The notes beneath the pieces were generated by a model. That model did not search any database. It saw nothing but the letters and a program-made list of their open reading frames with translations, and was not told the DNA's origin. From Meandrina meandrites (lineage: Eukaryota; Cnidaria; Anthozoa; Scleractinia; Meandrinidae): a stretch of 64,000 nucleotides of DNA. Position 1 is the first letter of the stretch. Each line of letters begins with the position of its first letter. Made by a program: the position numbers and the translations under genes. Location: assembly GCA_963693305.1 (NCBI GenBank), contig OY855909.1, positions 506,001 to 570,000 of the forward strand. The letters run 5' to 3'. Shown piece after piece: positions 31,171 through 57,700 of the stretch.

Positions 31171-32698
31171 AGCTGGCTTTTTGCGCTGCTTGCAAAAGCC
31201 GACCCAAAATTGTGGTTTGAAACCAAACTCGTGGAATTCGATCCCAAGGGTGTTTTTTCGTTTTGCCCCGATGGGGAATCTCAAAAAAACGAGTTCTGAA
31301 CGCAATTGGACGACCTTCGTCAACCCGGCGTTTTCCGCTACTTGGTAAATCCACCCCAAAATGGTGGTATGAAACCGACCTCGTGGAATTCAATCCAAAG
31401 GGTGTTTTTTCGGTTCGCCCCGATGGGGAAACTCGAAAAAACGAGTTTTCAACGCAATTGGACGACATTCGTCAATCCGCCTTTTTGCACTGCTTGCAAA
31501 AGCCCAGCAAAAATGGTGGTATGAAACCGACCTCGTTTAATTTGATCCCAAGGGTGTTTTTTTGTTCCGTCCCGATGGGGAAACTCGACAAAACGAGTTT
31601 TCAACCCAATTGGACGACCTTGGTCAAACCGGCGTTTTGCGCTGCTTGGAAAATCCCACCCAAAATGGTGGTATGAAACCGACCTCGTGGAATTCGAACC
31701 CAAGGGTGTTTTTTCGTTTCGCCCCGATGGGGAAACTCGACAAAACGAGTTTTGAACGCAATTGGACGACCTTCGTCAACCCAGCGTTTTCCGCTGCTTG
31801 GTAAAGCCCAGCAAAAATAGTGGTATGAAACCGACCTCGTGGAATTCGAACCCAAGGGTGTTTTTTCGTTTCGCCCCGATGGGGAAACTCGACGAAACGA
31901 GTTTTCAACGCAATTGGACGACCTTCGTCAACCCGGCTTTTTGCACTGCATGCAAAAGCCCAGAAAAAATGGTGGTATGAAACCGACCTCATGGAATTCG
32001 ATCCCAAGGGTTTTTTTTTGTTTCCCCCTGATGGGGGAACTCGACAAAACGAGTTTTCAACCCAACTGGAAGACCTTCGTCAACCCGGCCTTTTCCGCTG
32101 CTTGGTAAGTCCAACCCAAAATGGTGGTATGAAACCGACCTCGTGGAATTCGATCCCAAGTGTGTTTTTTCGTTTCGCTCCGATGGGGAAAGTCGAAAAA
32201 ACGAGTTTTCAACCCAATTGGAAGGACTTCGTCATCCCGGCGTTTTCCGCTGCTTCGTAAAGCCCACCCAAAATGGTGGTATGAAACCGACCTCGTGGAA
32301 ATCGATCCCAAGGGTGCTTTTTCGTTTCGCCCCGATGGGGAAAGTCGAAAAAACGAGTTTTGAACGCAATTGGACGACCTTCGTCAACCCGGCGTTTTCC
32401 TCTGCTTGGTAAAAGCAACCCAAAATGGTGGTATGAAACCGATCTCGTGGAATTCGATCCCAAGGGTGTTTTTTCGTTTCGCTCCGACGGGGAAAGTCGA
32501 AAAAACGAGTTTTCAAGGCAAATGGACGACCTTCGTCAACCCGCCTTTTTGCACTGCTTGCAAGGGCCCAGGAAAAATGTTGGTATGAAACCGACCTCGT
32601 GGAATTCGATCCCAAGGGTGTTTTTTTGTTTCGTCCCGATGGGAAAACTCGACAAAACGAGTTTTCAAGCCAATTGGAAGAACTTCGTCATCCCGGCG
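31171..32698 (+). repeat. 152-bp satellite, left segment (forward)
   Basis: About ten units with a strict 152-bp period. The landmark GATGGGGA recurs at 31,272, 31,423, 31,575, 31,727 and 31,879. Each unit contains short inverted repeats: CCCCGATGGGG, AACTCG/CGAGTT around an A-tract, and CCACC/GGTGG. Because 152 is not a multiple of 3, neighbouring units expose 60-140-codon frames in every frame, and these are not genes. The array is interrupted inside a unit by the Polinton. Confidence 0.95.
32694..32698. repeat. Target-site duplication, left copy (CGGCG)
   Basis: CGGCG immediately precedes the element terminus AGTAGG and recurs at 47,701-47,705 straight after the other terminus, CCTACT. 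Polintons generate 5-6-bp target duplications. The uninterrupted unit in the opposite arm (53,220-53,224) has this pentamer only once. Confidence 0.9.
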
Positions 32699-33384
32699 AG
32701 TAGGTATGTTTTGGGAGTTCCGGCTCATTCTCCCAATTTCCTCGAATTCATCGAGGATTTTCTCGGAAAACATACTTTTGAGACACTCGAGGATTTTCTC
32801 GATTTATCTCCATTGATTTTTCATGAGTATCATCCTCTCATAAATATTTATGATAAAATGAAATATTAGCTTAAAAAGAATAAATTGAATACTAAATGGA
32901 TTCTAACAAGCGAGATGTTAATGACCTGAGTGAAGAATTAAAGAAACGAGGGTTTAAACAACCCTCATCAAACAAAATTATCACAGTTGACGAATATATG
33001 CAGATCTTAAACCACAACTATAATGTAATTATGAAAGAGATTCATAATTACACCACAACTCCTCAACCAGGCTCTAAAAAAATGAGTTAAACAAAAATAC
33101 TTTTATAAATATAATCAATGGAGAAACAGACCGTCAAACAGTTGAAGGTCCTTGCTAAAGAGCGAGGTATCAAAGGTTATTATAGAATGCGTAAAGCGGA
33201 GTTAATCGAGGTGTTAAGTACCGATGAGAGTGAAATTTATTACTCAGCGAATGAACAGACTGTACCGGAGGTTGATATACCGATTCCAACACCAAAGAAA
33301 AAATGCTCACATGATAGAGTGAGATACCAATGTAAAGAGTGTAAAGGTCTTGGAATCTGTGAACACAACCGACGTAAATCAAGT
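32699..33384 (+). repeat. Outer terminal inverted repeat, left (686 bp)
   Basis: Matches the reverse complement of 47,015-47,700 over 686 bp with only a few substitutions visible, for example one residue change in the 64-codon ORF. It spans the terminus, a promoter region, the 64-codon gene and the first part of the EsV-1-7-repeat gene. It contains the hairpin CCTCGA-ATTCA-TCGAGG (32,740-32,756) and two direct copies of TCGAGGATTTTCTCG (32,751-32,765 and 32,787-32,801), possible integrase or terminal-protein sites (inference). Confidence 0.93.
32896..33090 (+). CDS. Small hypothetical protein in the left terminal repeat (64 aa)
   Basis: Function unrecognised. It is a hydrophilic 64-residue protein with a predicted helical, charged N-terminal half and a Pro/Gly/Lys-rich tail. 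There is no membrane segment or cysteine motif. The ATG sits in ACTAAATGG, the same start context used by PolB, because the first 14 nt of both genes lie in the shared 211-bp terminal sequence. It ends 27 bp before the EsV-1-7-repeat gene, same strand. A second copy lies at 47,309-47,503, with an H/L difference near residue 50. The well-formed upstream box and the conservation between copies argue that it is expressed, but the evidence is indirect. Confidence 0.55.
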   Translation: MDSNKRDVNDLSEELKKRGFKQPSSNKIITVDEYMQILNHNYNVIMKEIHNYTTTPQPGSKKMS

Positions 33385-33618
33385 TGTAAAGACTGCAAAG
33401 GTAGTGAAATCTGTGAGCATAACCGAATGAGATACCAATGTAAAGACTGTAAAGGAAAAGGTATATGTCCTCGTGGTAAACAAAAATCTTTCTGTAAAGA
33501 TTGTGGAGGGTCACAGATTTGTTATCATGGTAAAAAAAATTTTTTCTGTAAAGAGTGCGGAGGAAAAGGTATCTGTCAACACGGTAGACATAAGTATCAT
33601 TGTAAAGAATGCAAGTGA
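33118..33618 (+). CDS. SAP/Rho-N-like plus EsV-1-7 cysteine-repeat protein (166 aa)
   Basis: Residues 1-35 form a short helical SAP/Rho-N-like module (pattern LKVLAKERGIKG..RMRKAEL), a type often used to bind nucleic acid. After a proline-rich linker (about 48-60), residues 63-166 hold about six 18-residue repeats of the form IC-x-H-x6-C-K-x-C-x-G. These match the EsV-1-7 domain first described in brown algae and found in giant viruses and Polintons. The Cys/His spacing suggests metal binding. A role in DNA binding or regulation is inference. The gene faces the leftward structural cluster, separated by an 11-bp-stem hairpin. The first 267 bp are duplicated at the right end, where the gene is truncated after about one repeat. 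Confidence 0.8.
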   Translation: MEKQTVKQLKVLAKERGIKGYYRMRKAELIEVLSTDESEIYYSANEQTVPEVDIPIPTPKKKCSHDRVRYQCKECKGLGICEHNRRKSSCKDCKGSEICEHNRMRYQCKDCKGKGICPRGKQKSFCKDCGGSQICYHGKKNFFCKECGGKGICQHGRHKYHCKECK

Positions 33619-36886: not shown

Positions 36887-36898
36887 TTTTAAATTGCT

Positions 36899-37828: not shown

Positions 37829-37849
37829 TTTACAGAGGGGAGTAAATCT

Positions 37850-38805: not shown

Positions 38806-38832
38806 TTATCTTAAGAGAGAAGATCTTTAAAA

Positions 38833-39228
38833 TCAGTGCATCCCCATTTTGGGTACAGGAATCTTTGAGGGTTGAGGTCTTTCTATCACAGGTGGAGGTT
38901 CCGTTAAGGGAGGATCAACCTCTGTATCTTTTCTGTAACTCATAAATATATTGATTGCGGTTAAACCGATTCCGACAAGAGAGATCGCGGTTGTGAAAGA
39001 GATCTCAGGAATCCAACCCTCCATTCGATAGCCTTGCTCTGCTGTGAGATCTTTACTCTCCTCTTCCTTCTCAGCCTCACGTTTCATCTTCTCTTTCAAC
39101 GCCTCTTTCGCCCGTTTATTATACTCGGCGAGTTTCTTTCCTGCAGCGACCTTCTTGGGATCTTTCTCTTTTGTTTTAACGTTACTCTCAATAGGGGTCT
39201 TTGTTATCTGTTCAACATCATCCGACAT
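38833..39228 (-). CDS. Lys-rich single-pass membrane protein (131 aa)
   Basis: The highly charged Lys/Glu N-terminal half (about residues 20-62) contains the motif KDPKKVAAGKKLAEYNKRAK. It is followed by one membrane segment (about 76-94) and a proline-rich tail. The N-terminal motif resembles, from memory, small basic proteins of invertebrate Polintons. Its role is unknown. A basic cytosolic side could contact DNA or the capsid (inference). It starts in CTAAATG with a TTAAAGAG box upstream, 22 bp from the nuclease gene. Confidence 0.6.
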   Translation of the reverse strand: MSDDVEQITKTPIESNVKTKEKDPKKVAAGKKLAEYNKRAKEALKEKMKREAEKEEESKDLTAEQGYRMEGWIPEISFTTAISLVGIGLTAINIFMSYRKDTEVDPPLTEPPPVIERPQPSKIPVPKMGMH

Positions 39229-39250
39229 TTAGTTCTTATTAAACATCTCT

Positions 39251-39637
39251 TTAATCAATCTTCACACCCTTCATTATTAATTTTCCGATAATGAAAGGTG
39301 TGAGATCCCAATAACAAACGTAGTGAGGGATTCTTATTAAGAGAACTCCTTCATCTCTGCACATCTCATCCTTCAAAGAGTCTTTCATAACTTGATACTC
39401 AAAATCACCCACACATGAGTGAAAGAGGGGAGTGAACCTCGAGTGCTGAACACCGTCGTACTCGAATGCTAAACCTTTACCTTTTGGGGTTATCACATCA
39501 GGGTTATAACCGTCCAACTCGAGGTTCTGATAAGTCCAAGGATTCTTTAACCAATCGGGTCTCACCGTTTTGAACTCTTTTTTGAATAACTCTTGAAATA
39601 TCTTTCTGCACTTCTCTTCATATACTCCGAATGACAT
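39251..39637 (-). CDS. PD-(D/E)xK / restriction-endonuclease-like protein (128 aa)
   Basis: Matches small viral nucleases with the pattern LELDGYN...LAFEYDGVQH. Candidate acidic residues are E40/D42 and E59/D61, followed by Q64-H65, a KDSLKDEMC helix and the strand GVLLIRIPH (about 97-105). This order is typical of Vsr/RE-like folds in large DNA viruses. It could resolve or trim DNA ends or act in repair; the role is inference. Length is normal for a single-domain nuclease. A TTTAAACA box lies about 25 bp upstream of the AAAATG start. Confidence 0.7.
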   Translation of the reverse strand: MSFGVYEEKCRKIFQELFKKEFKTVRPDWLKNPWTYQNLELDGYNPDVITPKGKGLAFEYDGVQHSRFTPLFHSCVGDFEYQVMKDSLKDEMCRDEGVLLIRIPHYVCYWDLTPFIIGKLIMKGVKID

Positions 39638-39698
39638 TTTAATTAACTATTAAGAAATGTTTAAATCAACTGACTAGGTTGATTTAGTTAATCTTAAC

Positions 39699-40184
39699 TT
39701 AAGAGTCTACTTCATTCTCCTCACTCGGTCTTAACTTTACGTGCTTAGCGACCTTAAAGAGTCCGCTAGCTAACGCTACCAATCTTCCTCCCTTCAGTAC
39801 CAAGAGACCTGCAAAGTTACTCAGTTCACGTTTAACAAGATCATCGTTTTTCAAGTCTTCATTCAGAGCCTCCACATCATCCACGGGAATTACGTAAGAG
39901 ATAAGAACGGAGGCCGCAGAGATGGCTGACTCTACCAATCCGGTCGATACTCTCTTTCCCATTACGGTCTTGTATCGATTGAAGTACTTTTTCACCTGTT
40001 TGGGGGAGAGTCTCTTTATATCTCCGAGGGACATCGCTTTACCGAGAAACTCCTCTGTCGATCCTAGGGAAGCGAGTATCGCGAGTGATTCTCTATGAGT
40101 ATCGAGATCTTCATCATCATCGGGGGTCTTATCCTCTTTAACCTCGGGTATATCATCGATATAATCTTCAACGTTCGCCATCAT
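39699..40184 (-). CDS. Conserved Polinton hypothetical protein (about 161 aa)
   Basis: The acidic N-terminus (EDYIDDIPEV) is followed by a helical domain with KQVKKYFNRYKTVMGKR and a C-terminal region with hydrophobic helices (LLVLKGGRLVALASGLFKVAKHV). The start is set at the ATG-ATG pair (40,184/40,181). The longer frame to 40,229 would need TTG and would overlap the ATPase gene, and the TTTAAAGG box lies just upstream of the ATG pair. Function is unknown. Its place between packaging ATPase and nuclease suggests assembly or packaging (inference). Confidence 0.65.
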   Translation of the reverse strand: MMANVEDYIDDIPEVKEDKTPDDDEDLDTHRESLAILASLGSTEEFLGKAMSLGDIKRLSPKQVKKYFNRYKTVMGKRVSTGLVESAISAASVLISYVIPVDDVEALNEDLKNDDLVKRELSNFAGLLVLKGGRLVALASGLFKVAKHVKLRPSEENEVDS

Positions 40185-40212
40185 TAATATGATTGGTGAA
40201 ACCTTTAAATTA

Positions 40213-40833
40213 CTAAGTCGGTATCTCAAGATAACACTCGAACGGATATCTGAGACTTAGACAGAGTCGAGAGTATCTCTCTGTTTTTAAAAGTTTCATG
40301 AATTTTTTTCGAGTCTCTGTGTCAAGATCTCCTCCGTAATCCTCAAACAGGGTCTTCATACCGACCTGAGAGGGATTGTGAAAAGTTACCACGAAGGAGA
40401 CGTTCTCTCGGAAGGGTTTCGCTATCGAGGTTAACTGCTGTGTCAACACCCATACACTCAATCCGTGGTGCCTTCCCGAGAAAGCGAGATCGACGAATTT
40501 ATTGGAGCGTTGCTTAAGGTCTTTTGAGACGGCGCAGTCATCGAGAATTAACAGGGTGTTCGTCCCGGAGAAGAGAAGTGATACGTCTGTAAGAAGAGAA
40601 GTGATCTCATCAGAGTCGGTGGAATCCGGAGAGAGTATGAAGAAGCGTTTATCGCCTTCGGCGAACCCTCGGTAGGTTCTGTTCTTCGCATATGTCGGGC
40701 AGATAAGAACAATGTACTCAAAGACCTTTCGAAAGGGTCCTCGTAACTGCTCGATAAGGTACTCTGTCTTTCCACAGTTTGTCGGTCCTGTGATTATCAT
40801 GTTAAAGGGAATATTGTCTCGTAACTCATTCAT
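40213..40833 (-). CDS. A32/FtsK-HerA-like genome-packaging ATPase (206 aa)
   Basis: Walker A is GPTNCGKT (residues 16-23). Walker B is LLILDD (94-99). A sensor-type VLTQQ motif follows at 129-133. The size and order match the packaging ATPases of Polintons, adintoviruses and nucleocytoplasmic large DNA viruses, which pump the genome into the capsid by ATP hydrolysis. It lies directly downstream of the capsid gene with a 24-bp gap, the usual morphogenetic pairing. The start has ATAAATG with an A-rich TTAAAAAAAT box upstream. Confidence 0.9.
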   Translation of the reverse strand: MNELRDNIPFNMIITGPTNCGKTEYLIEQLRGPFRKVFEYIVLICPTYAKNRTYRGFAEGDKRFFILSPDSTDSDEITSLLTDVSLLFSGTNTLLILDDCAVSKDLKQRSNKFVDLAFSGRHHGLSVWVLTQQLTSIAKPFRENVSFVVTFHNPSQVGMKTLFEDYGGDLDTETRKKFMKLLKTERYSRLCLSLRYPFECYLEIPT

Positions 40834-40857
40834 TTATTTATTAATCGAGGGATTTTT

Positions 40858-42096
40858 TTAATATAGGATCGACTTCAACTCTGTGTTCATGATCTCCATA
40901 AATGCGTCAGCAACCACGAACATGTAACAGTTGATTTTTCCCGTTCCACCGACCTTCCTCTTGATCTCAAGTTTCACTCCGTCTCGTGTTGTGTTTATGT
41001 GAAGACCTCCTCCGTGAATACCGTTGTCAGAGAAGGTTCTCAAATCGATCCAGAGAGCGAACTTGTCTGTGTAGAAATCTTCCTCCTTCACCTTGCCTGA
41101 TCCGCCCATTCGTCTCTTGATCGATTCCCAAAAGTCAGACGGAATCATCCCCTTTAAGAAGAGTCGGTTGGGCATACCGTCGATGTTGATGGTGATCGAT
41201 TTAATGTCAGGATTGACAAACTTCTCAGAGTCTCGTTCTCCCTCTTTATAATCCTCTTCAAACAGACAGAGTATGCCTGTCATCGACTTTCTCGGAAGAT
41301 TGATGTGCTCGTTAATTATGCTATCGTCCGGTTTTGAGATGGGGAAAGTTCTGTGAAGGATTACATTCTCGTAGTAGAATCCTTTACCGACCTGATATGA
41401 AGAGGTGGCCTTACTAGACAGGTCTTCACTATTGATGCATCGATACTCCAACTCAATGTTAGTCAATTTATAGGTCGGTGTCTTTTCCTTCTCTTTTTTA
41501 TCATGATTTAATATCTGATCAACCTTCGAAAGAGTGATCTCAAACAACAGAGGATGAGGAAGAGCCTTCGGATAGAGAGCTCCGTGATCACTGAGAACGG
41601 GATGGTCGAGAGGTATAACGTATTTGGTGTTGTGAACTGTGGCGAGGGTGACCTCTTTTGAGTCAGTTTCAACCCTATCCCCTGCAGGTGTACGAAGTTT
41701 TCTCATATTCTCGGATGAGATTCCCTGTTTTAATCTGTCATCTCTATCCTCGAGAAAGAGATCATGATAGGTCTGAAAGAGATCGTATCTCTCTGTGGTC
41801 TGAAGTGTCTCACCTCCGAAAGAGACCTTGAGCTGTTCAACGAGGTTTCTTCCGACGTTATTCACGAGGGTGTTGTTTGCATGACCACCGACTTTCATGT
41901 CGAAGAGAAGTTTAACGCTTCCCGGTACGATGACCACGTTTTCTGACAGTTTGGGAATGTAGATACTGATCGTCTCTCCGGGATTCGCTGATGAGGGATT
42001 AAATGTGATCCTGTTGAGAGATGACTCCGCCTTCAAGCCGAACGGTTCTCTCGGTACTCGGTTAGGATTGATAATCTCTGCGATAGCGTGCGACAT
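40858..42096 (-). CDS. Major capsid protein, double jelly-roll type (412 aa)
   Basis: Soluble beta-rich protein with the features of Polinton/adintovirus capsid proteins: an N-terminal strand with FNPSSANPG...IPKL (about 32-50), a PGS-x-L-x-FDM strand (about 57-67), a helical YDLFQTYHDLFLEDRDDR linker (about 104-121) and a C-terminal strand set ending in CYMFVVADAF. Identification rests on these patterns, its size and the ATPase next door; structure prediction would settle it. It is the first gene of the leftward cluster and shares a 27-bp divergent intergenic region with the integrase. Confidence 0.75.
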   Translation of the reverse strand: MSHAIAEIINPNRVPREPFGLKAESSLNRITFNPSSANPGETISIYIPKLSENVVIVPGSVKLLFDMKVGGHANNTLVNNVGRNLVEQLKVSFGGETLQTTERYDLFQTYHDLFLEDRDDRLKQGISSENMRKLRTPAGDRVETDSKEVTLATVHNTKYVIPLDHPVLSDHGALYPKALPHPLLFEITLSKVDQILNHDKKEKEKTPTYKLTNIELEYRCINSEDLSSKATSSYQVGKGFYYENVILHRTFPISKPDDSIINEHINLPRKSMTGILCLFEEDYKEGERDSEKFVNPDIKSITINIDGMPNRLFLKGMIPSDFWESIKRRMGGSGKVKEEDFYTDKFALWIDLRTFSDNGIHGGGLHINTTRDGVKLEIKRKVGGTGKINCYMFVVADAFMEIMNTELKSILY

Positions 42097-42123
42097 TTTA
42101 AAAGAGAGAGATGTTATTTTTAA
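42097..42123. promoter_or_regulatory. 27-bp divergent promoter between capsid and integrase genes
   Basis: The whole gap between the two start codons contains a TTTAAA-type box facing each way: TTTTAAAAG beside the capsid ATG and TTTTTAAATG at the integrase ATG. No space exists for a conventional upstream promoter, so any initiator elements must be this compact or lie inside the neighbouring gene. Confidence 0.6.
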
Positions 42124-43095
42124 ATGAGTAACCTTATGAGAAAGATTTACTACAGCCCGGAGGGTTATTGGAAAGGGTACTCTGCTGTATCGAAGTTGGC
42201 TTCCACAGCGAATGTCAGTGAGTCTGAGGCGAGAGATTGGTTAGAGAGACAGGCACTTTGGCAGATCTATCTTCCTCCACCGAAGTATTTACCGAGACCA
42301 CATTGGAGTGTGAGTAGACCGAATGAGATTCACCAGGCGGATCTTCTCTTTCTTCCTCACGATAAGGTGGGAAGGAAGACTTATAGATACGCGTTGGTTG
42401 TGATCGATGTTGCCTCGAGATATAAAGATGCTGAGGCGTTAACATCGAAAGAGAGTCAAGAGGTAGCGAAGGTCTTTGAGACTATCTATAAAAGAAAGCT
42501 CCGGTGGCCAAAGACACTGATCGTCGATCCCGGTAAAGAGTTTATGGGTTATGTTACAAAATTAATGGATAAACATAATGTGAAGATACAGAGAAGTGAA
42601 GCGGGTAACCATCGAGCTCAGGCATTCGTTGAGAGAGCGAACAGGACTTTGGGAGAGAGATTATTCAGCCATCAGTACGCACAGGAGATGATTAGTGAAG
42701 GGAGATCGAGAGTCTGGGTGAAGAGGTTGCCTGCCGTTATGAAAGCGTTGAACTCTCAGGTGATCAGAATCACAGGCAAAGAACCTGATAAAGCCCTCGG
42801 TTTAAAAGAGGTAGAGATTAAACAGGTTAATTACAAAAGACCTGTCGGATTAAAGGAGAAGAGATTACCCTCGGGTGTTCAGGTAAGGTATCTTCTCTCT
42901 CCCGGGGAGGATGAGGGAGGAGAGAGAAGAAGAGCGACTGATCCGATCTGGAGTATTACGGTCTATAATATAAATCGTGTGGTGATCTCTCCTGAACAGC
43001 CTGTTTTATATTATCTTCTCGACGGACCGAAGAGATCGTTTGTCAGGGAAGAGCTTCAAGTCGTACCGTCTGACGCTGAGCTTCCACCCTTATAA
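42124..43095 (+). CDS. Retroviral-type (rve) Polinton integrase (323 aa)
   Basis: Catalytic core with D73 (IHQADLLFLP), D135 (LIVDPGKEF) and E170 (AFVERANRTL), giving a D,D-35-E arrangement. The N-terminus (about 1-55) is a helix-turn-helix-like helical region rather than a recognisable HHCC finger. The C-terminus (about 260-315) is an SH3-like segment (WSITVYNINRVVI...LDGPKRSFVREELQ). No chromodomain is seen. It inserts the linear element with a short target duplication, consistent with the CGGCG seen at the ends. Its 3' end overlaps the convergent PolB gene by 40 bp. Confidence 0.92.
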   Translation: MSNLMRKIYYSPEGYWKGYSAVSKLASTANVSESEARDWLERQALWQIYLPPPKYLPRPHWSVSRPNEIHQADLLFLPHDKVGRKTYRYALVVIDVASRYKDAEALTSKESQEVAKVFETIYKRKLRWPKTLIVDPGKEFMGYVTKLMDKHNVKIQRSEAGNHRAQAFVERANRTLGERLFSHQYAQEMISEGRSRVWVKRLPAVMKALNSQVIRITGKEPDKALGLKEVEIKQVNYKRPVGLKEKRLPSGVQVRYLLSPGEDEGGERRRATDPIWSITVYNINRVVISPEQPVLYYLLDGPKRSFVREELQVVPSDAELPPL

Positions 43096-46000
43096 TGACC
43101 GTAAGCGAAGGTATGAATGTTATCCTTCCGTATTAATCTCTTATCATCGAATGGAGAGAGAGCGATCTTGTTAACCGTCTCGGTAAAGATTGTGTGTAGA
43201 TGACTTCTTATCACATTCATCTTTCTCATGGCAGGTTTATTATCGAACAAACAGTCTTTGTAATCGTTGAAGGTGATGGTCTTCTTTATGACCGCCTTCT
43301 TCACTCCCTTACACTTCTTCTCTTCGTACGAATCCTCTACTCTGCTCGTTCCCTCGCAAGCGTCGCTGACTCTGTATGAGTAGAGTTTAGCTCTCAATCC
43401 TACAAACTCTGCGATCTGCTTCCCTGAGGCCTCGTCTTTAAACATACCGATTACCTTCTTATTTACACCGGTGAGAATACCGCTTGGGTGATCTTTCGGG
43501 TAATTACTCGTATCGAACTTCTCTTTCACATCGGAGGAGATGTCTCTGTAAAAATCTTCTGTCTGTATCTCGTAGGCGAGGCTGTCCGTGTCTGTGAATA
43601 AGAGCTTCGCATTCTCTCCGTACTTGGGTTTGATGTAATTATAATGAAAATCGTACATCAAGGTCTTACTCAGGTCGAGGATTGACATGCCGAGGTATAC
43701 GGGTTTGTTAAACTTTAACTTCACCTTCTTCATATGAACGGCCGCAAGATTCTTAGAGAAGATTGTATGGTGTTGATAATTAGGTTTACACGTTAACCTC
43801 TTCGCCTGATATTCTCGAGTGACTAATCTTATGTCGACTCTGTTTCTGATGTTCTCCATAGTCTTACCGAATACGGAGTTATTTATCAACTTGAAAAAGT
43901 CTTTCTCAAAATCGTTCTGTGCCTTCGCTCTGAGATTCGTGTTAAGATCGATGTACGGTTTTAGCCACGCTGACTCTTCGAATGTAATCCCTCTGTGAAT
44001 CTTGGTGAGTTTTAATCCGAGAGAGAGATAGAGTTTTAAGGTTTCGTGATGAATAACGTACTTTTTCTTATCGTTAAGATTGGGAATTAATTTCTCAACC
44101 TTATTCACGGTGACTCTCTCCGGTGCTAAAGGATAGTCGTTATGTAGGTCATGGAGTTTCTCAGGATACTCCAAGTCGACCTCAAGTATGCAGGCCTGAT
44201 TTTTCCAATCCTTCAACTCTTCTCTCTTCCTCCATCTAAAACCTTTAGTCGGTAGAGGTTTACACATTGCCCAACCGTAGAGATTGTTTGCGTCGAGATA
44301 AGAGATGAACTTTGTCGGTTGATCGGGATCGTAATCTTTCATGTAAGGATTGTTGGCCTTTCCATATCTCGTAGAGATCATTGAGACTCCTCCTCTAATA
44401 CCTTTCTCTACCATCATTAACATGTCGTAATCGGTTAATAACTCCAGTCTGACCTTAGTGATTTTTAAACATGCATCCCATGCAAGACCTGGTGCTGTGT
44501 AATAGAATATCGGGTCTAGACGGTAATTATCAAGGCAAACATCCCTGAAGTTTTCAAAGACGTCAGAGAGCAGAAGAACATCACTCTTGAGATAGAGGTC
44601 ATGGTAATCTCTCATGGTCTTCATTTCAAATGTTTTCCACACCTTCTGTGCATGAATGTAATCCTCGATTGAGATGTCACTGTCATTCAATATGGAGTGG
44701 AATGACTCTTTCGGTGGAAGTGATGTTGAAGAGAGTTTACCGAAGTTATCGAACCAATCATAGGGAAAGACACCCTTTCTTAATAGAAGTTTTAACTGTT
44801 CACCTTCATAAAATTCTGTAATATTTTTAAAAGACTCTTTCGGAAGATTTTTTACCAAGTTATCGAGGCTAGTCGCCATGAATTTAAAAGAGTCGATGAA
44901 TCTTATTTTACGCTTTACCTCTACCTCTTTTTTCTCCTCATTTATGAATTTATCAACAATTATCTCTTTGGTAAATGAGATGTACTTCTCCTCATTACAG
45001 GGTATGCAGTCTATCTTTCCCTCTGATTTACCGAGGTTTTTAATGAAGAGATGACTGTCGTAACCTGAGAGATTGTGAAATATGACAGGATAGAATTTGG
45101 GTATTTTAAACTTTAAATTACATTTGTTATGAGCTGCTCCTATAAACTTACCGGTGAGGTGACAATGGTCGCGAACCTTTTTTTCTTTTTTATCATCAGT
45201 CTTTTTTAATTTACCCTCACAGATGTGACAGTGAGTTGCCTTTTCATAGTCGATCTCATCCTCTGGTGTCATCACCATCTTCTTCGGTATTTTAAACTTA
45301 TTATAAATCTCCTTGATATCTGACTCCAAAGACTCAATGAATAACCTAGGGATGTTATCATCAGGAGATTCAGCTGTGTAATGTCTAAGGTGAGGTGCTA
45401 AAAGGTTATCATCAAAGCATTTGATGAGATAACTGAAACCTGAGGGACTGTGCTTTTGGTACTGATTGGTGAAGCTTTTGTTATCGTTGGGTTGACATGT
45501 GTCTATCTTCTCTGTGAAGCACTCGAAATCAGCATAAACAACGAAGGGAACTCTCATCTTCTTATGAAAATGATTGAATTTTATATAGACGGGAAAAGTG
45601 TTTCCTTCATCGTCTTCTCTGATCGGCATCTCAATCTTGACAGCCTCGTTATTCTGGCAGTACTCTTTATGTTTCTCCAGTGATTTCTCTGAATGAAACG
45701 AGTTTAAGCATCTGTAGCAGAAATATCGCTTACCGTGGTGCTTACTAACATCAGAAGATAAAAGTCTCGACATGTTTTTGATCCAGCAGAAGTGATTGGT
45801 CTCTTCATTAGCGATAAGTAGAAGGTTTATCACCTGCTCTTTCTTTTTACTTATTCTCAGAGGGTAAACAACCTTTTCATAACCGAATACATTGATTGCG
45901 TAACTGTTCTGATTCTCAAACTTATCTATCTGTTTAAGCGAGACGGGAAACTCGATACCTGTCCAGTCAAACTTCTCTGAATCTTCTCTCATCCGTTTGC

Positions 46001-46817
46001 TTAGTCTCTCTGCATTTTTCTTTTGAGGAAACACTGCTGAGGTTACTGCCCACTTAAAACACTCATTATCATTCTCATTCTTGACGTTGATGATCGCCTT
46101 TTTCATGTATAAACTACTTGGTAACTCAATATAAGAAGAGGCAGACAGAGGATTGAAAGGATTGATGTTTATGTCGAGGTGTTCGACTCTGTCGAATTGC
46201 CAACCGGAACCTCTGTTTTGAAAATTCTGTATCAATTCAAAGATTTTATCTGTCATCTGATCGTAAATAACAGGGATATCAGTTGCCTCTGTCACAATCT
46301 CCATTTTCGATGCGAAGGAGTATACATTAATATCGATGTTGCCTGTGGCGGGATTCTCTTTGGTAAACCTTACGGTGAGAATTAACTTGACTTTGATTGA
46401 TCCCTTACTCTTTATGAGATCTATAACCCTCGGTTTTACGTTATTCATAAACGTCTTCTCATCCATACCGTTTATACCGTTAACTCTGAACGTTTTAAAA
46501 TAACCCTTTATAGCTGTCTTGTACTCTCTGGGTGTGAGATTATCCTCTTCTGGTGAATTTACATCATCTACAGGTTCTTGGTGATCTTCCTGTCTCCTAA
46601 AAATACTGTTTACTCTCTCCTTCAGGTTCTCGACTCTCTCATTCACAGCTCTTTTGATAGGTTCAGGGATATAATTTAATAACCACCCTGTAAACCTGTT
46701 TATTACACTCTTTACGGGTGCTACCGCATTATAAGCAAGATTCCTCATCTGCGTTACTCTCGATGGTGCGTAAATCGGGATATTAACCTCCGGTATTGGT
46801 TGATTGTTAGAATCCAT
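43056..46817 (-). CDS. Protein-primed family-B DNA polymerase, Polinton type (1,253 aa)
   Basis: Exonuclease motifs: YADFE (D430, E432), HNLSGYD (D587) and YLKSD (about 742-746). Polymerase motifs: A at LDANNLYG (D842), B at KLINNSVFG (976-984) and C at DTDS (1076-1079). A C2HC finger lies at C367/C370/H383/C387. Between Exo I and Exo II is an endonuclease-VII-like treble clef (C530, C533, HCH 551-553, H563, C566). The first about 250 residues have no recognised domain and could hold the terminal-protein or priming function (inference). The length and complete motifs indicate an intact enzyme. The start codon lies in the inner terminal repeat (ACTAAATGG). Confidence 0.93.
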   Translation of the reverse strand: MDSNNQPIPEVNIPIYAPSRVTQMRNLAYNAVAPVKSVINRFTGWLLNYIPEPIKRAVNERVENLKERVNSIFRRQEDHQEPVDDVNSPEEDNLTPREYKTAIKGYFKTFRVNGINGMDEKTFMNNVKPRVIDLIKSKGSIKVKLILTVRFTKENPATGNIDINVYSFASKMEIVTEATDIPVIYDQMTDKIFELIQNFQNRGSGWQFDRVEHLDININPFNPLSASSYIELPSSLYMKKAIINVKNENDNECFKWAVTSAVFPQKKNAERLSKRMREDSEKFDWTGIEFPVSLKQIDKFENQNSYAINVFGYEKVVYPLRISKKKEQVINLLLIANEETNHFCWIKNMSRLLSSDVSKHHGKRYFCYRCLNSFHSEKSLEKHKEYCQNNEAVKIEMPIREDDEGNTFPVYIKFNHFHKKMRVPFVVYADFECFTEKIDTCQPNDNKSFTNQYQKHSPSGFSYLIKCFDDNLLAPHLRHYTAESPDDNIPRLFIESLESDIKEIYNKFKIPKKMVMTPEDEIDYEKATHCHICEGKLKKTDDKKEKKVRDHCHLTGKFIGAAHNKCNLKFKIPKFYPVIFHNLSGYDSHLFIKNLGKSEGKIDCIPCNEEKYISFTKEIIVDKFINEEKKEVEVKRKIRFIDSFKFMATSLDNLVKNLPKESFKNITEFYEGEQLKLLLRKGVFPYDWFDNFGKLSSTSLPPKESFHSILNDSDISIEDYIHAQKVWKTFEMKTMRDYHDLYLKSDVLLLSDVFENFRDVCLDNYRLDPIFYYTAPGLAWDACLKITKVRLELLTDYDMLMMVEKGIRGGVSMISTRYGKANNPYMKDYDPDQPTKFISYLDANNLYGWAMCKPLPTKGFRWRKREELKDWKNQACILEVDLEYPEKLHDLHNDYPLAPERVTVNKVEKLIPNLNDKKKYVIHHETLKLYLSLGLKLTKIHRGITFEESAWLKPYIDLNTNLRAKAQNDFEKDFFKLINNSVFGKTMENIRNRVDIRLVTREYQAKRLTCKPNYQHHTIFSKNLAAVHMKKVKLKFNKPVYLGMSILDLSKTLMYDFHYNYIKPKYGENAKLLFTDTDSLAYEIQTEDFYRDISSDVKEKFDTSNYPKDHPSGILTGVNKKVIGMFKDEASGKQIAEFVGLRAKLYSYRVSDACEGTSRVEDSYEEKKCKGVKKAVIKKTITFNDYKDCLFDNKPAMRKMNVIRSHLHTIFTETVNKIALSPFDDKRLIRKDNIHTFAYGHYKGGSSASDGTT

Positions 46818-47014
46818 TTAGTATTCAATTTATTCTTTTTAAGCTAATATTTCATTTTATCATAAATATTTATGAGAGGATGATACTCATGAAAAATCAA
46901 TGGAGATAAATCGAGAAAATCCTCGAGTGTCTCAAAAGTATGTTTTCCGAGAAAATCCTCGATGAATTCGAGGAAATTGGGAGAATGAGCCGGAACACCC
47001 AAAACATACCTACT
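46804..47014 (-). repeat. Inner terminal inverted repeat, right (211 bp): apparent original right terminus
   Basis: The reverse complement matches 32,699-32,909, beginning with AGTAGG and ending 14 nt into the shared ATGGATTCTAACAA. After that the left side continues into the 64-codon gene and the right side into PolB. This defines the pre-existing right end at 47,014. The 686-bp copy of the left end begins directly outside it. Confidence 0.88.
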
Positions 47015-47281
47015 ACTTGATTTACGTCGGTTGTGTTCACAGATTCCAAGACCTTTACACTCTTTACATTGGTATCTCACTCTATCATGTGAGCATTTTT
47101 TCTTTGGTGTTGGAATCGGTATATCAACCTCCGGTACAGTCTGTTCATTCGCTGAGTAATAAATTTCACTCTCATCGGTACTTAACACCTCGATTAACTC
47201 CGCTTTACGCATTCTATAATACCCTTTGATACCTCGCTCTTTAGCAAGGACCTTCAACTGTTTGACGGTCTGTTTCTCCAT
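46844..47281 (-). pseudogene. Truncated copy of the SAP/EsV-1-7 gene at the right end
   Basis: The first 89 codons match the gene at 33,118-33,618: the SAP-like module, the linker and the first cysteine repeat up to the sequence AAATCAAGT. There the outer terminal repeat stops and the frame runs into the inner terminus for a further roughly 57 codons unrelated to EsV-1-7 repeats. Most cysteine repeats are lost, so a normal product is unlikely, although the ATG and leader are intact and a chimeric 145-residue peptide could be made. Confidence 0.75.
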
Positions 47282-47700
47282 TGATTATATTTATAAAAGT
47301 ATTTTTGTTTAACTCATTTTTTTAGAGCCTGGTTGAGGAGTTGTGGTGTAATTAAGAATCTCTTTCATAATTACATTATAGTTGTGGTTTAAGATCTGCA
47401 TATATTCGTCAACTGTGATAATTTTGTTTGATGAGGGTTGTTTAAACCCTCGTTTCTTTAATTCTTCACTCAGGTCATTAACATCTCGCTTGTTAGAATC
47501 CATTTAGTATTCAATTTATTCTTTTTAAGCTAATATTTCATTTTATCATAAATATTTATGAGAGGATGATACTCATGAAAAATCAATGGAGATAAATCGA
47601 GAAAATCCTCGAGTGTCTCAAAAGTATGTTTTCCGAGAAAATCCTCGATGAATTCGAGGAAATTGGGAGAATGAGCCGGAACTCCCAAAACATACCTACT
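47015..47700 (-). repeat. Outer terminal inverted repeat, right (686 bp): extra copy of the left end
   Basis: Inverted match to 32,699-33,384. It lies outside the inner terminus and its own end, CCTACT at 47,695-47,700, abuts the CGGCG duplication. The two arms are nearly identical, so the duplication is recent or kept homogeneous by replication. Confidence 0.93.
47309..47503 (-). CDS. Second copy of the 64-aa terminal-repeat protein
   Basis: Inverted duplicate of 32,896-33,090, with a visible His-to-Leu change near residue 50. Start context ACTAAATGG and the upstream leader are retained, so it is potentially expressed leftward from the right end. Confidence 0.5.
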   Translation of the reverse strand: MDSNKRDVNDLSEELKKRGFKQPSSNKIITVDEYMQILNHNYNVIMKEILNYTTTPQPGSKKMS

Positions 47701-47705
47701 CGGCG
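47701..47705. repeat. Target-site duplication, right copy (CGGCG)
   Basis: Directly follows CCTACT. The interrupted 152-bp unit resumes here with CGGCGTTTTCCGCTGC. Confidence 0.9.
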
Positions 47706-50234: not shown

Positions 50235-53200
50235 CCTCATCGGGGGGAAACGAAAAAACACCCTTGGGATCGAATTTTAAAATTTCGGTTTCATGCCACC
50301 ATTTTGGGTGGGCTTTTCCAAGCAGCGGAAAAACCCGGGTTGACGAAGGTCGTCCAATTGCGTTCAAAACGCGTTTTTTCAACTTTTCCCATATTGGCCA
50401 GACAAAAAAAACAGCCGTGAGATCAAATTTTACAATTTCCGTTTCATGCCACCATTTTGTGTGGGCTTTTCCAAGCAGCGGAAAAAGCCGGGTTGACGAA
50501 GGTCGTCCAATTGCGTTAAAAACACGTTTTTTCAACTTTCCCCATCGGGGCGAAGCGAAAAAACAGCCTTGGGATCGAATTTTACAATTTCGGTTTGATG
50601 CCACCATTTTGGGTGGGCTTTTCCAAGCAGCGGAAAAACCCGCGTTCACGAAAGTGGTCCAATCTCGTTCAAAACGCGTTTTGTTAAATTTCCCCATCGG
50701 GGGGAAACGAAAAAACACCCTTGGGATCAAATTTTACAATTTCGGTTTCATGCCACCATTTTGTGTGGGCTTTTCCAAGCAGCGGAAAAAGCCGGGTTGA
50801 CGAAGGTCATCCAATTGCGTTCAAAACGCGTATTTTAAACTTTCCCCATCGGGGCGAAGCGTAAAAACAGCCTTGGGATCGAATTTTACAATTTCGGTTT
50901 CATGCCACCATTTTGTGTGGGCTTTTCCAAGCAGCGGAAAAAGCCGGGTTGACGAAGGTTGTCCAATTGCGTTCAAAACGCGTTTTTTCAACTTTTCCGA
51001 TCTTGGCCAGACAAAAAAAACAGCCGTGAGATCAAATTTTACAATTTCGGTTTTATGCCACCATTTTGTGTGGGCTTTTCCAAGCAGCGGAAAAAGCCGG
51101 GTTGACGAAGGTCCTCCAATTGCGTTCAAAACGCGTTTTTTCAACTTTCCCCATCGGGGCGAAGCGAAAAAACAGCCTTGGGATCGAATTTTACAATTTC
51201 GGTTTCATGCCACCATTTTTGGTGGGCTTTTCCAAGCAGCGGAAAAAGCCGGGTTCACGAAAGTGGTCCAATCTCGTTCAAAACGCGTTTTGTTAAATTT
51301 CCCCATCGGGGGGAAACGAAAAAACACCCTTTTGATCGAATTTTAAAATTTCGGTTTCATGCCACCATTTTGGGTGGGCTTTTCCAAGCAGCGGAAAAAG
51401 CCGGGTTGACGAAGGTCGTCCAATTGCGTTCAAAACGTGTTTTTTCAACTTTTCCCATCTTGGCCAGACAAAAAAAACAGCCGTGAGATCAAATTTTACA
51501 ATTTCGGTTTCATGCCACCATTTTGTGTGGGCTTTTCCAAGCATCGGAAAAAGCCGGGTTGACGAAGGTCGTCCAATTGCGTTCAAAACGCGTTTTTTCA
51601 ACTTTCCCCATCGGGGAAAAGCGAAAAAACAGCCTTGGGATCGAATTTTACAATTTCGGTTTCATGCCACCATTTTTGGTGGGCTTTTGCAAGCAGTGCA
51701 AAAAGCCGGGTTGACGAAGGTCGTCCAATTGCGTTCAAAACGCGTTTTTTCGAGTTTCCCCATCGGGGCGAAACGAAAAAACACCCTTGGGATCGAATTC
51801 CACGAGGTCGGTTTCATACCACCATTTTTGGTGGGCTTTTGCAAGAAGCGTAAAAAGCCGGGTTGACGAAGGTCGTCCAATTCCGTTCAAAACTCGTTTT
51901 TTCGACTTTCCCCATTACGGCGAAACGAAGAATCACCCTTGGAATCGAATTTACCAATTTCGGTTTCATACCACCATTTTTGCCGGGCTTTTGCGAGCAC
52001 TGCAAAAAGCTGGGTTGACGAAGGTCGTCCAATTGCGTTGAAAACTCATTTTTTCGACTTTCCCCATCGTTGCGAAACGAAAAAACACCCTTGGGATCGA
52101 ATTCCAGGATGTCGGTTTGATACCACCATTTTTGGTGGGCTTTTGCAAGCAGCGCAAAAAGCGGGGTTGAAAAAGTTCGTCCAATTGCGTTGAAAACTCG
52201 TTTTTTCGTCTTTCCCCATCGGGGCGAAACGAAAAAACACCCTTGGGATCGAATTCCACGAGGCTTGTTTCATACCACCATTTTGGGTGGGCGAAAAACA
52301 GCGAAAAACGGCGGGTTGACGAAGGTCGTCCAATTGCGTTAAAAACTCGTTAATTCGACTTTCCCCATCGGGGGGAATCGAAAAAACACCCTTGGGATCG
52401 AATTCCACGAGGTCGGTTTCATATTACTATTTTGGTTGGGCTTTTGCAAGCAGTGCAAAAAGCCAGGTTGACGAAGTCCCGCCAATAGTGTTCAAGACAC
52501 GTTTTTTTGACTTTCCCCATCGTGGCGAATGGAAAAAACACCCTTGGGATCGAATTCCACGAGGTCGGTTTCATACGACCATTTTGGGTGGGCTTTTCCC
52601 AGCAGCGCAAAAAGCCGGGTTGACGAAGGTCGTCCAATTGCGTTCAAAACTCTTTTTTTCGACTTTCCCAATCGGGGCGAAACGAAAAAACACCCTTTGG
52701 ATCGAATTCCACGAGGTCGGTTTCATACGACCATTTTGGGTGGGCTTTTCCCAGCAGCGCAAAAAGCCGGGTTGGCGAAGGTCGTCCAATTGCGTTCAAA
52801 ACTCGTTTTTTCGACTTTCCCCATCGGGCCAAAACGAAAAAACATCCTTGGATCGAATTCAACGAATTCGTTATCATACCACCATTTTGGGAGGGCTTTA
52901 CCAAGGAGCGGAAAACGCCGGGTTGACGAAAAACGTCAAATTGCGTTTAAAACTCGTTTTGTCGAGATTCCCCATCGGGGTGAAACGAAACAACACCCTT
53001 GGGATCGAATTCCACGAGGTCAGTTTCATACCACCATTTTGGGTGGGCTTTACCAAGCAGCGGAAAACGCCGGGTTGACGAAGGTCGTCCAATTGCGTTC
53101 AAAACTCGTTTTTTCGACATTCCCCATCGGGGCGAAACGAAAAAGCACCGTTGGGATCGAATTCCACCAGGTCGGTTTCATACCACCATTTTGGGTTGGC

Positions 53201-54746
53201 TTTACCAAGCAGCGGAAAACGCCGGGATGACGAAGCTCTTCCAATTGGGTTGAAAACTCGTTTTGTCGAGTTTTCCCATCGGGACGAAACAAAAAAACAC
53301 CCTTGGGATCAAATTCCACGAGGTCGGTTTCATACCAACATTTTTGCTGGGCCCTTGCAAGCAGTGCAAAAAGGCGGGTTGACGAAGGTCGTCCATTTGC
53401 CTTGAAAACTCGTTTTTTCGACTTTCCCCGTCGGAGCGAAACGAAAAAACACCCCTGGGATCGAATTCCACGAGATCGGTTTCATACCACCATTTTGGGT
53501 TGCTTTTACCAAGCAGAGGAAAACGCCGGGTTGACGAAGGTCGTCCAATTGCGTTCAAAACTCGTTTTTTCGACTTTCCTCATCGGGGCGAAACGAAAAA
53601 GCACCCTTGGGATCGATTTCCACAAGGTCGGTTTCATACCACCATTTTGGGTGGGCTTAACGAAGCAGCGGAAAACGCCGGGATGACGAAGTCCTTCCAA
53701 TTGGGTTGAAAACTCGTTTTTTCGACTTTCCCCATCGGAGCGAAACGAAAAAACACACTTGGGATCGAATTCCACGAGGTCGGTTTCATACCACCATTTT
53801 GGGTTGGACTTACCAAGCAGCGGAAAAGGCCGGGTTGACGAAGGTCTTCCAGTTGGGTTGAAAACTCGTTTTGTCGAGTTCCCCCATCAGGGGGAAACAA
53901 AAAAAACCCTTGGGATCGAATTCCATGAGGTCGGTTTCATACGACCATTTTTTCTGGGCTTTTGCATGCAGTGCAAAAAGCCGGGTTGACGAAGGTCGTC
54001 CAATTGCGTTGAAAACTCTTTTCGTCGAGTTTCCCCATCGGGGCGAAACGAAAAAACACCCTTGGGTTCGAATTCCACGAGGTCGGTTTCATACCACTAT
54101 TTTTGCTGGGCTTTACCAAGCAGCGGAAAACGCTGGGTTGACGAAGGTCGTCCAATTTCGTTCAAAACTCGTTTTGTCGAGTTTCCCCATCGGGGCGAAA
54201 CGAAAAAACACCCTTGGGTTCAAATTCCACGAGGTCGGTTTCATACCACCATTTTGGGTGGGATTTTCCAAGCAGCGCAAAACGCCGGTTTGACCAAGGT
54301 CGTCCAATTGGGTTGAAAACTCGTTTTGTCGAGTTTCCCCATCGGGACGGAACAAAAAAACACCCTTGGGATCAAATTCCAGGAGGTCGGTTTCATACCA
54401 CCATTTTTGCTAGGCTTTTGCAAGCAGTGCAAAAAGGCGGGTTGACGAATGTCGTCCAATTGAGTTGAAAACTCGTTTTTTCGAGTTTCCCCATCGGGGC
54501 GAAACGAAAAAACACCCTTTGGATTGAATTCCACGAGGTCGGTTTCATACCACCATTTTGGGGTGGGTTTACCAAGTAGCGGAAAACGCCGGGTTCACGA
54601 AGGTCGTCCAATTGCGTTCAAAACTCGTTTTTTTGAGATTCCCCATCGGGGCGAAACGAAAAAACACCCTTGGGATCGAATTCCACGAGTTTGGTTTCAA
54701 ACCACAATTTTGGGTCGGCTTTTGCAAGCAGCGCAAAAAGCCAGCT
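50228..54746 (-). repeat. 152-bp satellite, right segment (reverse)
   Basis: About 30 reverse units. Subfamily B lies near the centre (to about 51,700) and subfamily A further out, mirroring the left arm. Rare unit variants occur in mirrored order, for example the one missing a C before AAGGGTGC at about 48,380 and its counterpart at about 52,850. A CTGTTTTTTTTGTCTGGCC variant recurs near 50,400, 51,010 and 51,470. The array ends at CCAGCT (54,741-54,746), the mirror of the left border. No gene is seen. Confidence 0.95.
53220..53224 (-). other. Empty Polinton insertion site in the opposite arm
   Basis: The reverse strand here reads GTCATCCCGGCGTTTTCCGC with a single CGGCG. The flanking unit shares private variants with the interrupted left-arm unit, namely GACCTGGTGGAATTCGATCC and CCCAACGGTGC. 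It is therefore the homologous, uninterrupted locus. Confidence 0.88.
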
Positions 54747-57700
54747 GTGTAGTGCACAGAGTACAGTGTACCGTGTCTAGTGCACAGAGTACAGTGTACC
54801 GTGTATAGTGCACAGTGCAGAGAGTAAAGTGTACCGTGTATTGTGCACAGAGTACAGTGTACCGTGTATGCTGCACAGTGCACAGAGTACAGTGTACCGT
54901 GTATAGAGCACAAAATACAGTGTACCGTGTATAGTGCACAGAGTACAGTGTACCGTGTATAGTGCACAGAGTAGAGTGTACGGTGTATAGTGCACAGTGC
55001 ACAGAGTACAGTGTACCGTGCATAGTGCACAGTGCAGAGAGTACAGTGTACCGTGTATATTGCACAGAGTACAGTGTACCGTGTATAGTACAAAGAGTAC
55101 AGTGTACCGTGTATAGTGCACAGAGTACAGTGTACCGTGTATAGTGCACAGTGCACAGAGTACAGTGTACCGTGTATAGAGCACAGTGAACAGTGCACAG
55201 AGTACAGTGTACCGTGTATAGAGCACAGCGCACAGAGTACAGTGTATATACCGTGTATATACCGTGTATATACCGTATATACTACTATACCGTGTATAGT
55301 GCACAGTGCACAGGGTACATGTTACCGTGTATAGTGCACAGTGCACAGTGCACAGAGTACAGTGTACCGTGTATAGTGCACAGAGTACAGTGTACCGTGT
55401 ATAGTGCACAGAGTAGAGTGTACCGTGTATAGTGCACAGTGCACAGAGTACAGTGTACCGTGCATAGTGCACAGTGCACTGAGTCCAGTGTACCGTGTAT
55501 AGTGCAAAGTGCACAGAGTACAGTGTACCGTGTATAGTGCACAGTGCACAGTGCACAGAGTACATTGTACCGTGTATAGTGCACAGCGCACAGAGTACAG
55601 TGTACCGTGTATAGTGCACAGAGTACTGTGTACCGTGTATGGTGTACAGTGCACAGAGTACAGTGTACCGTGTTTAGTGCACAGGGCATAGAGTACAGTG
55701 TACCGTGTAAAGTGCAGAGTACAGTGTACTGTGTATAGTGCACAGTGCACAGAGTACAGTGTACCGTGTATAGCGCACAGTGCACAGCATACAGTGTACC
55801 GTGTATAGTGCACAGCACACAGAGTACAGTGTACCGTGTATAGTGCACAGTGCACAGAGTAATGCACCGTGTATAGTGCACAGTGCACAGAGTACAGTGT
55901 ACCGTGTATAGTGCACGGTGCACAGAGTACAGTGTACCGTGTATAGTGCACAGTGCACAGAGTACAGTGTACCATGTATAGTGCACAGGGCACAGAGTAC
56001 AGTGTACCGTGGATAGTGCACAGAGTACAGGGTACTGTGTATAGGGTACAGTGCACAGAGTACAGTGTACCGTGTATAGTGCACAGTGCACAGTGTACCA
56101 TGTATAGTGAACAGAGTACAGTGTACCGTGCATAGTGCACAGTGCACTGAGTCCAGTGTACCGTGTATAGTGCAAAGTGCACAGAGTACAGTGTACCGTG
56201 TATAGTGCACAGTGCACAGAGTACAGTGTACCGTGTATAGTTCACAGTGCACAGAGTACAGTGTACCGTGTATAGTGCACAGTGCACAGTGCACAGAGTA
56301 CATTGTACCGTGTATAGTGCACAGCGCACAGAGTACAGTGTACCGTGTATAGTGCACAGAGTACTGTGTACCGTGTATGGTGTACAGTGCACAGAGTACA
56401 GTGTACCGTGTTTAGTGCACAGGGCATAGAGTACAGTGTACCGTGTAAAGTGCAGAGTACAGTGTACTGTGTATAGTGCACAGTGCACAGAGTACAGTGT
56501 ACCGTGTATAGCGCACAGTGCACAGCATACAGTGTACCGTGTATAGTGCACAGCACACAGAGTACAGTGTACCGTGTATAGTGCACAGTGCACAGAGTAA
56601 TGCACCGTGTATAGTGCACAGTGCACAGAGTACAGTGTACCATGTATAGTGCACGGTGCACAGAGTACAGTGTACCGTGTATAGTGCACAGTGCACAGAG
56701 TACAGTGTACCATGTATAGTGCACAGGGCACAGAGTACAGTGTACCGTGGATAGTGCACAGAGTACAGGGTACTGTGTATAGGGTACAGTGCACAGAGTA
56801 CAGTGTACCGTGTATAGTGCACAGTGCACAGTGTACCATGTATAGTGAACAGAGTACAGTGTACCGTGTATAGTACACAGTGCACAGAGTACAGTGTACC
56901 GTGTATAGTGCACAGAGTACAGTGTACCGTTTATAGTGCACAGTGCACAGAGTACAGTGTACTGTGTATAGTGCACAGAGTACAGTGTACTGTGTATTAG
57001 AAAACAGTGCACAGTGCACAGAGTACAGTGTACCGTGTATAGTGCACAGTGCACAGAGTACAGTGTACCGTGTATAGTGCACAGTGCACAGTGCACAGAG
57101 TACAGTGTACCGTGTATAGTGCACAGAGTACTGTGTACCGTGTATGGTGTACAGTGCACAGAGTACAGTGTACCGTGTATAGTGAACAGAGTACAGTGTG
57201 CCGTGTATAGTGCACAGAGTACCGTGTACCGTGTATAGTACACAGTGCACAGGGTACAGTGTACCGTGTATAGTGCACAGTGCACAGAGTACAGTGTACC
57301 GTGCATAGTGCACAGTGCACTGAGTCCAGTGTACCGTGTATAGTGCAAAGTGCACAGAGTACAGTGTACCGTGTATAGTGCACAGTGCACAGAGTACAGT
57401 GTACCGTGTATAGTTCACAGTGCACAGAGTACAGTGTACCGTGTATAGTGCACAGTGCACAGTGCACAGAGTACATTGTACCGTGTATAGTGCACAGCGC
57501 ACAGAGTACAGTGTACCGTGTATAGTGCACAGAGTACTGTGTACCGTGTATGGTGTACAGTGCACAGAGTACAGTGTACCGTGTTTAGTGCACAGGGCAT
57601 AGAGTACAGTGTACCGTGTAAAGTGCAGAGTACAGTGTACTGTGTATAGTGCACAGTGCACAGAGTACAGTGTACCGTGTATAGCGCACAGTGCACAGCA

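Follow-up and report, generated by a model that had tools for sequence, protein, structure and literature searches.

How did a mobile element come to carry, on one side, two nested copies of its own terminus? The question is raised by a stretch of 64,000 nucleotides from Meandrina meandrites (GenBank assembly GCA_963693305.1, contig OY855909.1, positions 506,001 to 570,000 of the forward strand), here called the window and written C7:506,001-570,000 within the 56 contigs (551 Mb) of the genome that we searched. Positions 32,699-47,700 hold an element that is best called Polinton/Maverick-like, as judged from what it has in common with that group: an rve integrase, an A32-type ATPase, a candidate protein-primed polymerase, inverted terminal repeats and AGT termini. 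It is embedded in a 152-bp satellite, itself flanked on the outside by a 7/35-bp repeat array. An initial annotation had described a complete 211-bp right terminus followed without a gap by a 686-bp inverted copy of the left end, and alignment confirms both the structure and its coordinates: 46,804-47,014 is the reverse complement of 32,699-32,909 with one mismatch in 211 (at 46,997), and 47,015-47,700 is that of 32,699-33,384 with two mismatches in 686 (33,044/47,355 and 33,177/47,222). The outermost 211 bp of the right end are identical to the left end. An inverted-repeat scan finds the same arms (I1, 695 nt, 99%; I2, 211 nt, 100%; rounded values), and their match is far beyond chance.

The junction at 47,014/47,015 reads CCTACT followed directly by ACTTGATTT; nothing is inserted, and at the joint itself the two sequences have no base in common. 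The left-end sequence in the same orientation is TTTACAACTTG, and a TAC match lies one base further out, beyond one mismatch. The outer terminus is the one inserted by the integrase, as the initial annotation had held, because CGGCG borders both outermost ends of the element; the bases after the inner end (ACTTG) differ from the left flank. Inverted satellite units to the right match the empty insertion site, 53,371-53,220 against the last left-flank unit at 97.4% and 53,224-53,073 against the first right-flank unit at 98.7%. This empty site lies where the satellite right of the element becomes an inverted left-flank array (53220-54742 against 31175-32698, 98.4% over 1.5 kb). The further claim that the gene next to the end is duplicated and truncated also holds, part of a Rho_N gene being copied at the right end as a chimeric 145-amino-acid (aa) open reading frame (ORF). 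Nested insertion of a second element was considered and set aside as less simple, for the first element would have had to be inverted, an insertion made at 33,384 and a stretch between repeats deleted; it is also disfavoured by the outer flanks, which carry a single target duplication.

What kind of event would add 686 bp outside a finished end? We are inclined to think that the second right end was gained on free linear DNA, by template switching in the course of protein-primed, strand-displacing replication, and that integration followed. A strand begun at the left end would copy the whole genome to the last base of the right end; its 3' end would then move to a left-end strand, either its own displaced partner or that of a sibling genome, at position 33,384, and 686 nucleotides would be copied back to the 5' end of that strand. 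The outermost matching repeats would thus lengthen from 211 to 686 bp, the end gene would be duplicated and truncated, and the integrase would insert the molecule by its outermost ends. The chromosome does carry the locus in a second copy, and this duplicate would presumably have lost its extra end by recombination between the direct 211-bp repeats. Formation on free DNA before integration is favoured because the junction falls at the exact terminal base. The outermost 686 bp of the element match in inverted orientation save for two bases, both ends coming from one parental end, and the outer end has its target duplication, while the duplicate locus has a single end. Template switching is favoured by the copy-back ends of five further elements of this genome, whose joints show short overlaps.

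In each of these five mirrored elements (Table 1) both ends come from one parental end. Their joints show overlaps of 1-11 nt, measured mostly against a diverged proxy: in alignments to the window element the overlap is 7 bases on contig C8, 11 on C1, 1 on C5 and 6 on C7, values that are rough, the window element being a diverged stand-in for the parental elements; on C9 these alignments leave a gap, and an overlap of about 9 bases lies between the arm and the interior match. All four mirrored elements in which both termini were read (C8, C1, C5, C9) have 5-bp target duplications. The mirrored molecules were probably made shortly before integration, because their arms are nearly identical and four carry target duplications. 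A common geometry would serve for all cases: a new strand quits its template, takes up a strand from the end at which it was begun, and is extended back along this to the terminus. In the window the departure point would be the end of the template, and the element would have kept its whole genome because the switch came there, at run-off.

The frequency of such products was gauged among the matches listed, namely the best 150 of 294 matches to the left-end gene (139 distinct loci) and 150 matches to the polymerase start (150 of 332 candidates scored). These contain 77 facing pairs of a left end and a polymerase end 6-26 kb apart, the window element and its duplicate included, against five mirrored elements attributable to internal switches: three pairs with polymerase ends on both sides and two with left ends on both sides. 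One of the 150 listed polymerase ends has a copy of the left-end gene just outside it on the same strand, and it is the window's own. A separate observation concerns C6:3268761-3306877, where a polymerase start (+) and a left-end gene (-) each repeat at 24.6-kb spacing, possibly as a tandem duplication of a whole element.

Table 1. Features of the element and its surroundings (positions in the window) and mirrored elements elsewhere in the genome (contig and position).
Feature	Position	Strand	Basis or description
Left target-duplication copy, CGGCG	32694..32698	.	flank comparison
Left terminal repeat A, 211 bp, begins AGTAGG	32699..32909	+	repeat comparison
64-aa ORF, start inside terminal repeat; second copy at 47309-47503	32896..33090	+	ORF list
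Segment B, further left-end sequence; inverted copy at right end	32910..33384	+	alignment
166-aa ORF ('B gene'), Rho_N and Cys-rich repeats; first part duplicated and truncated at right end	33118..33618	+	PF07498, E 1.9e-8
A32-like packaging ATPase (predicted)	40213..40833	-	PF04665, E 3.3e-13, 50.1 bits, cut-off 22.8
Putative major capsid protein, weak match	40858..42096	-	PF16903, E 0.0011, 19 bits, below cut-off 24
Retroviral-type integrase (rve, predicted)	42124..43095	+	PF00665, E 1.7e-8, 35.1 bits, cut-off 32.6
Candidate polymerase, 1253-aa ORF; ExoI-III, A, B, C and KxY motifs in order	43056..46817	-	motif scan
Inner, complete right terminal repeat A', 1 mismatch to left repeat	46804..47014	-	alignment
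Chimeric 145-aa ORF, first part of B gene continuing into inner terminal repeat	46844..47281	-	ORF list
Junction, exact inner terminus / inverted segment B	47014..47015	.	alignment
Segment B, inverted copy, 2 mismatches	47015..47489	-	alignment
64-aa left-end ORF, duplicate copy	47309..47503	-	ORF list
Outer right terminal repeat A', identical to left repeat; terminus used for integration	47490..47700	-	alignment and flanks
Right target-duplication copy, CGGCG	47701..47705	.	flank comparison
Inverted satellite units matching empty insertion site; 5-bp overlap 53220-53224 is the target duplication	53073..53371	-	flank alignment
Mirrored element, polymerase ends both sides	C8:20,373,797-20,384,790		arms ~3.3 kb, 99.8%
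Mirrored element, left ends both sides	C1:13,952,836-13,965,300		arms 1259 bp, 1 mismatch
Mirrored element, left ends both sides	C5:25,320,822-25,330,185		1332-bp match, 5 mismatches
Mirrored element, polymerase ends both sides	C9:28,545,493/28,553,967		arms 1126 bp, 1 mismatch
Mirrored element, polymerase ends both sides	C7:7,857,630/7,868,097		arms at least 791 bp, 3 mismatches; outer part outside the compared sequence

A genome-wide search with the terminal repeat gives 19 matches; five of them fall on this part of C7, and the others make up seven pairs at other places. The nearest copy (C7:368,555-382,872, 170 kb away) has a single right end with satellite directly after it. It shares the window's target duplication within the same satellite unit, and the left flanks of the two copies, compared in register along 14 stretches of 152 bp that comprise 10 satellite units and the array next to them, agree at about 99%, where an out-of-register match within the satellite reaches 80-94%; in the right flanks the first four units are 98-100% identical and later ones keep their order, with local rearrangement. 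Because the left flank is in register and the target duplication is common to both, this copy represents one and the same insertion event, whether through duplication of the stretch or through the placing of a second haplotype in tandem during assembly, and an independent sibling is ruled out. The search for sibling elements proposed in the initial annotation has thus yielded a single-ended copy that is no independent sibling. That annotation had regarded unrelated sequence after the 211-bp end of sibling copies as speaking against its account; the duplicate does have such sequence there, in form at least, and recombination between the two direct 211-bp copies would yield exactly the single end seen.

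Which state came first, the double end or the single one? Either the double end is ancestral and, as we infer, collapsed at C7:368,555-382,872 by that recombination, or it arose later, in the window copy only; of the two we lean towards the ancestral double end. The bodies of the two copies differ at 27 places in about 14.3 kb (14,318; 25 substitutions and two single-base indels, ~0.17%) and their flanking satellite at 14 in 1,524 (0.9%), more than the bodies (Fisher p 8e-6), a gap that may reflect conversion within the satellite, or later exchange or conversion between the element copies. The left and outer ends of the window element differ at 2 of 686 positions, where 1.2 would be expected from the divergence of the two locus copies; on these few numbers the double end does not look visibly younger than the locus duplication, a faint hint at most. 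The window's left 686 bp hold no private change that would tie the extra copy to this particular left end. At site 478, a third codon position, the extra copy has G, as have the relatives C10, C7b and C11, where the left ends of the window element and its duplicate, C2, C12 and C4 have T, which weakly hints at a different source molecule.

Several observations weigh against template switching on free DNA. The duplicate locus is single-ended, so a collapse must be assumed. The window joint offers TAC plus one mismatch, weak as microhomology, and in all five mirrored elements the switch took place away from a terminus. The initial annotation had proposed looking for the same double end in other elements: no second double-ended, run-off element stands among the 150 listed polymerase ends, a count that an extra end with no recognisable gene would escape, and 0 of 20 further left-end regions (1.4-1.7 kb each) has an inverted extra copy outside, a diverged or more distant one being beyond this comparison. 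The 1253-aa candidate polymerase matches no polymerase in Pfam, NCBIfam, PHROGs or PDB, its predicted structure (mean pLDDT, predicted local distance difference test, of 31) is too poor to use, and its candidacy comes from the order of its motifs: YADFE 428, NLSGYD 582, YLKSD 742, DANNLYG 842, KLINNSVFG 976, FTDTDS 1074 and KLY 1144. This order is the one to be expected in a protein-primed family B polymerase; the short patterns, for instance KxY, match elsewhere in the ORF too. Finally, the exact terminal joint fits autointegration equally well.

Joining by the integrase into the element's own DNA was missing from the mechanisms listed by the initial annotation and deserves a hearing. The 3' end of the right terminus would attack the left end, at 33,384, of the same or a sibling free genome in a one-ended autointegration, and replication from the left terminus of the attacked molecule would linearise the branch into a double-ended genome, which then integrates. 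The inner joint lies at exactly the base used in a real insertion (CCTACT), has no inserted base and needs no homology; the element carries an integrase gene, and Sleeping Beauty and piggyBac are documented to autointegrate, as retroviruses too are described as doing (PMC3952818). A second copy of an internal-site duplication would not be expected to persist, one end alone being joined. Yet this route needs a second step to resolve the branch, a TAC match adjoins the joint, and the five mirrored elements, whose inner joints lack a terminus, suggest that switching by the polymerase is sufficient by itself to make such ends here; we hold it to be unlikely. Rather less likely still is a gain after integration, in which the single end is original and the window copy acquired its 686 bp by microhomology-mediated break-induced replication or by gene conversion from a double-ended donor. 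Such a gain suits the other copy of the same insertion, single-ended and with intact flanks, the rearrangement of the flanking satellites between the two copies, and the lower divergence of the bodies (25 substitutions in 14,318) than of the satellite (14 in 1,524), a hint that exchange or conversion took place once the locus had been duplicated. For a chromosomal event, however, a first joint on the element's exact last base would be a coincidence, a return to the right flank by another homologous switch would be required as well, and the difference between left and outer ends is not below that expected from the two locus copies.

The joining of two linear genomes, which the initial annotation had offered beside template switching, we retain as an improbable explanation: host repair would have linked a complete genome to a broken left-end fragment of another before integration. 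Any linear DNA can be joined and the inner joint is almost free of homology, but protein-capped ends are poor substrates for end joining, and the recurrence of mirrored elements with near-identical arms would go unexplained. An assembly artefact is scarcely credible. Two near-identical copies 170 kb apart in satellite DNA do invite one; against this, the joint is unique sequence, beyond any simple collapse, 27 differences, two of them single-base indels, separate the two copies, and the extra copy has two differences of its own. Of the earlier mechanism, then, template switching stands as the favoured part, with five copy-back elements behind it, and the single-ended duplicate makes its placing before integration tentative.

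Target duplications measure 5 bp in 11 of 11 insertions read, that is in eight events (the window element and its duplicate counted once, the one on C11 read by hand) and in C1, C5 and C9; on C9 one base of the left terminus differs. The element's termini read AGTAGG, and those of relatives AGTAGG, AGTAGA or AGTAGT. Two relatives stand out at their termini: at C11:26218952-26233690 (target duplication CCACA) the terminus reads AGTAGAGTAG, with AGTAG repeated at the very end, and on C4 it reads AGTAGTAAGG. Initiation with sliding or jumping back may have left such forms.

As for the coding content, the candidate polymerase is of interest for its relatives as well. Rho_N occurs in 107 of 120 of them among those listed (a hand count; 7988 proteins matched), and of 13 polymerase starts compared, 11 resembled the start of the left-end Rho_N gene and two began MDSN, one of these being the window's own. 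The same four residues, MDSN, open both the window's polymerase and its left 64-aa ORF, and the terminal repeat encodes them. Shared starts of this kind suggest that one end could have been copied repeatedly onto the other. Residues ~512-568 of the candidate polymerase form a weak endonuclease VII-like stretch (Pfam, PHROGs). The integrase has 3141 related proteins at E <= 0.001; a search of IMG/VR by its profile gave 25 pattern matches, 0 of them confirmed. The capsid candidate has no PDB match to a capsid, and general domain scans of the ORFs gave no protease match, no ORF having been tested specifically for a cysteine protease. A 128-aa ORF at 39251-39637 matches phage HNH/homing endonuclease families, and a 230-aa ORF at 37850-38542 is, in its first 27 residues, weakly like N-terminal families of phage tail fibres. 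Around the 152-bp satellite, very long 7/28/35-bp arrays of TACACTG type occupy 1-31166 and 54746-64000 of the window.

How does the element compare with known systems? Vertebrate Mavericks are described with 6-bp target duplications (PMC8097293). The present element differs from them in its 5-bp duplications, in ends that read AGTAGG or AGTAGA rather than (AGT)2 or (AG)3, and in having one copy that is double-ended; the 5-bp duplication marks a different lineage and does not exclude it from the Polinton/Maverick superfamily. Switching onto a displaced strand is described for the phi29 polymerase (PMC4176320, where Esteban 1997 and Murthy 1998 are cited for terminal-protein genomes) and, in PMC9484634, for the T7 replisome, and strong strand displacement for a Polinton-derived polymerase of Entamoeba (PMC3511435). 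With the phi29 template-switching products the window element would share a protein-primed genome, copy-back by the polymerase and two ends from one parental end, whereas here the whole genome is kept, 686 bp are gained and the product is integrated in a chromosome. The phi29 molecules of Esteban and of Murthy are reported to be subgenomic or made in vitro. Adenovirus genomes with one end at both termini are a further protein-primed, linear case in which the opposite terminus has received a duplicate of an end; there the duplicate takes the place of the original end, whereas in the window element the original end is kept and the duplicate lies beyond it. Autointegration shares with the integrase-mediated alternative the joining of an element's end into its own DNA, but its products are deletion or inversion circles and single-ended events, where here a linear genome has two nested right ends. 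Our literature search found, among the matches listed, no paper linking Polintons with template switching, and to our knowledge the replication of Polintons has so far been inferred from their genes, not watched.

It is therefore tempting to suggest, as a possibility that we put forward tentatively, that Polintons keep chromosomal fossils of replication errors, made by switches inside the genome as well as at run-off, and that end copying explains the shared Rho_N and MDSN starts. Copy-back ends bearing their own target duplications would be physical traces of strand-displacing replication started from the ends, countable in any assembly, and the single-ended copy of the same insertion offers a built-in comparison. 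The double end would represent an intermediate by which terminal repeats lengthen with no loss of genes. If this is true, repeated end copying would lengthen the terminal repeats and give the gene at one end the start of its counterpart at the other.

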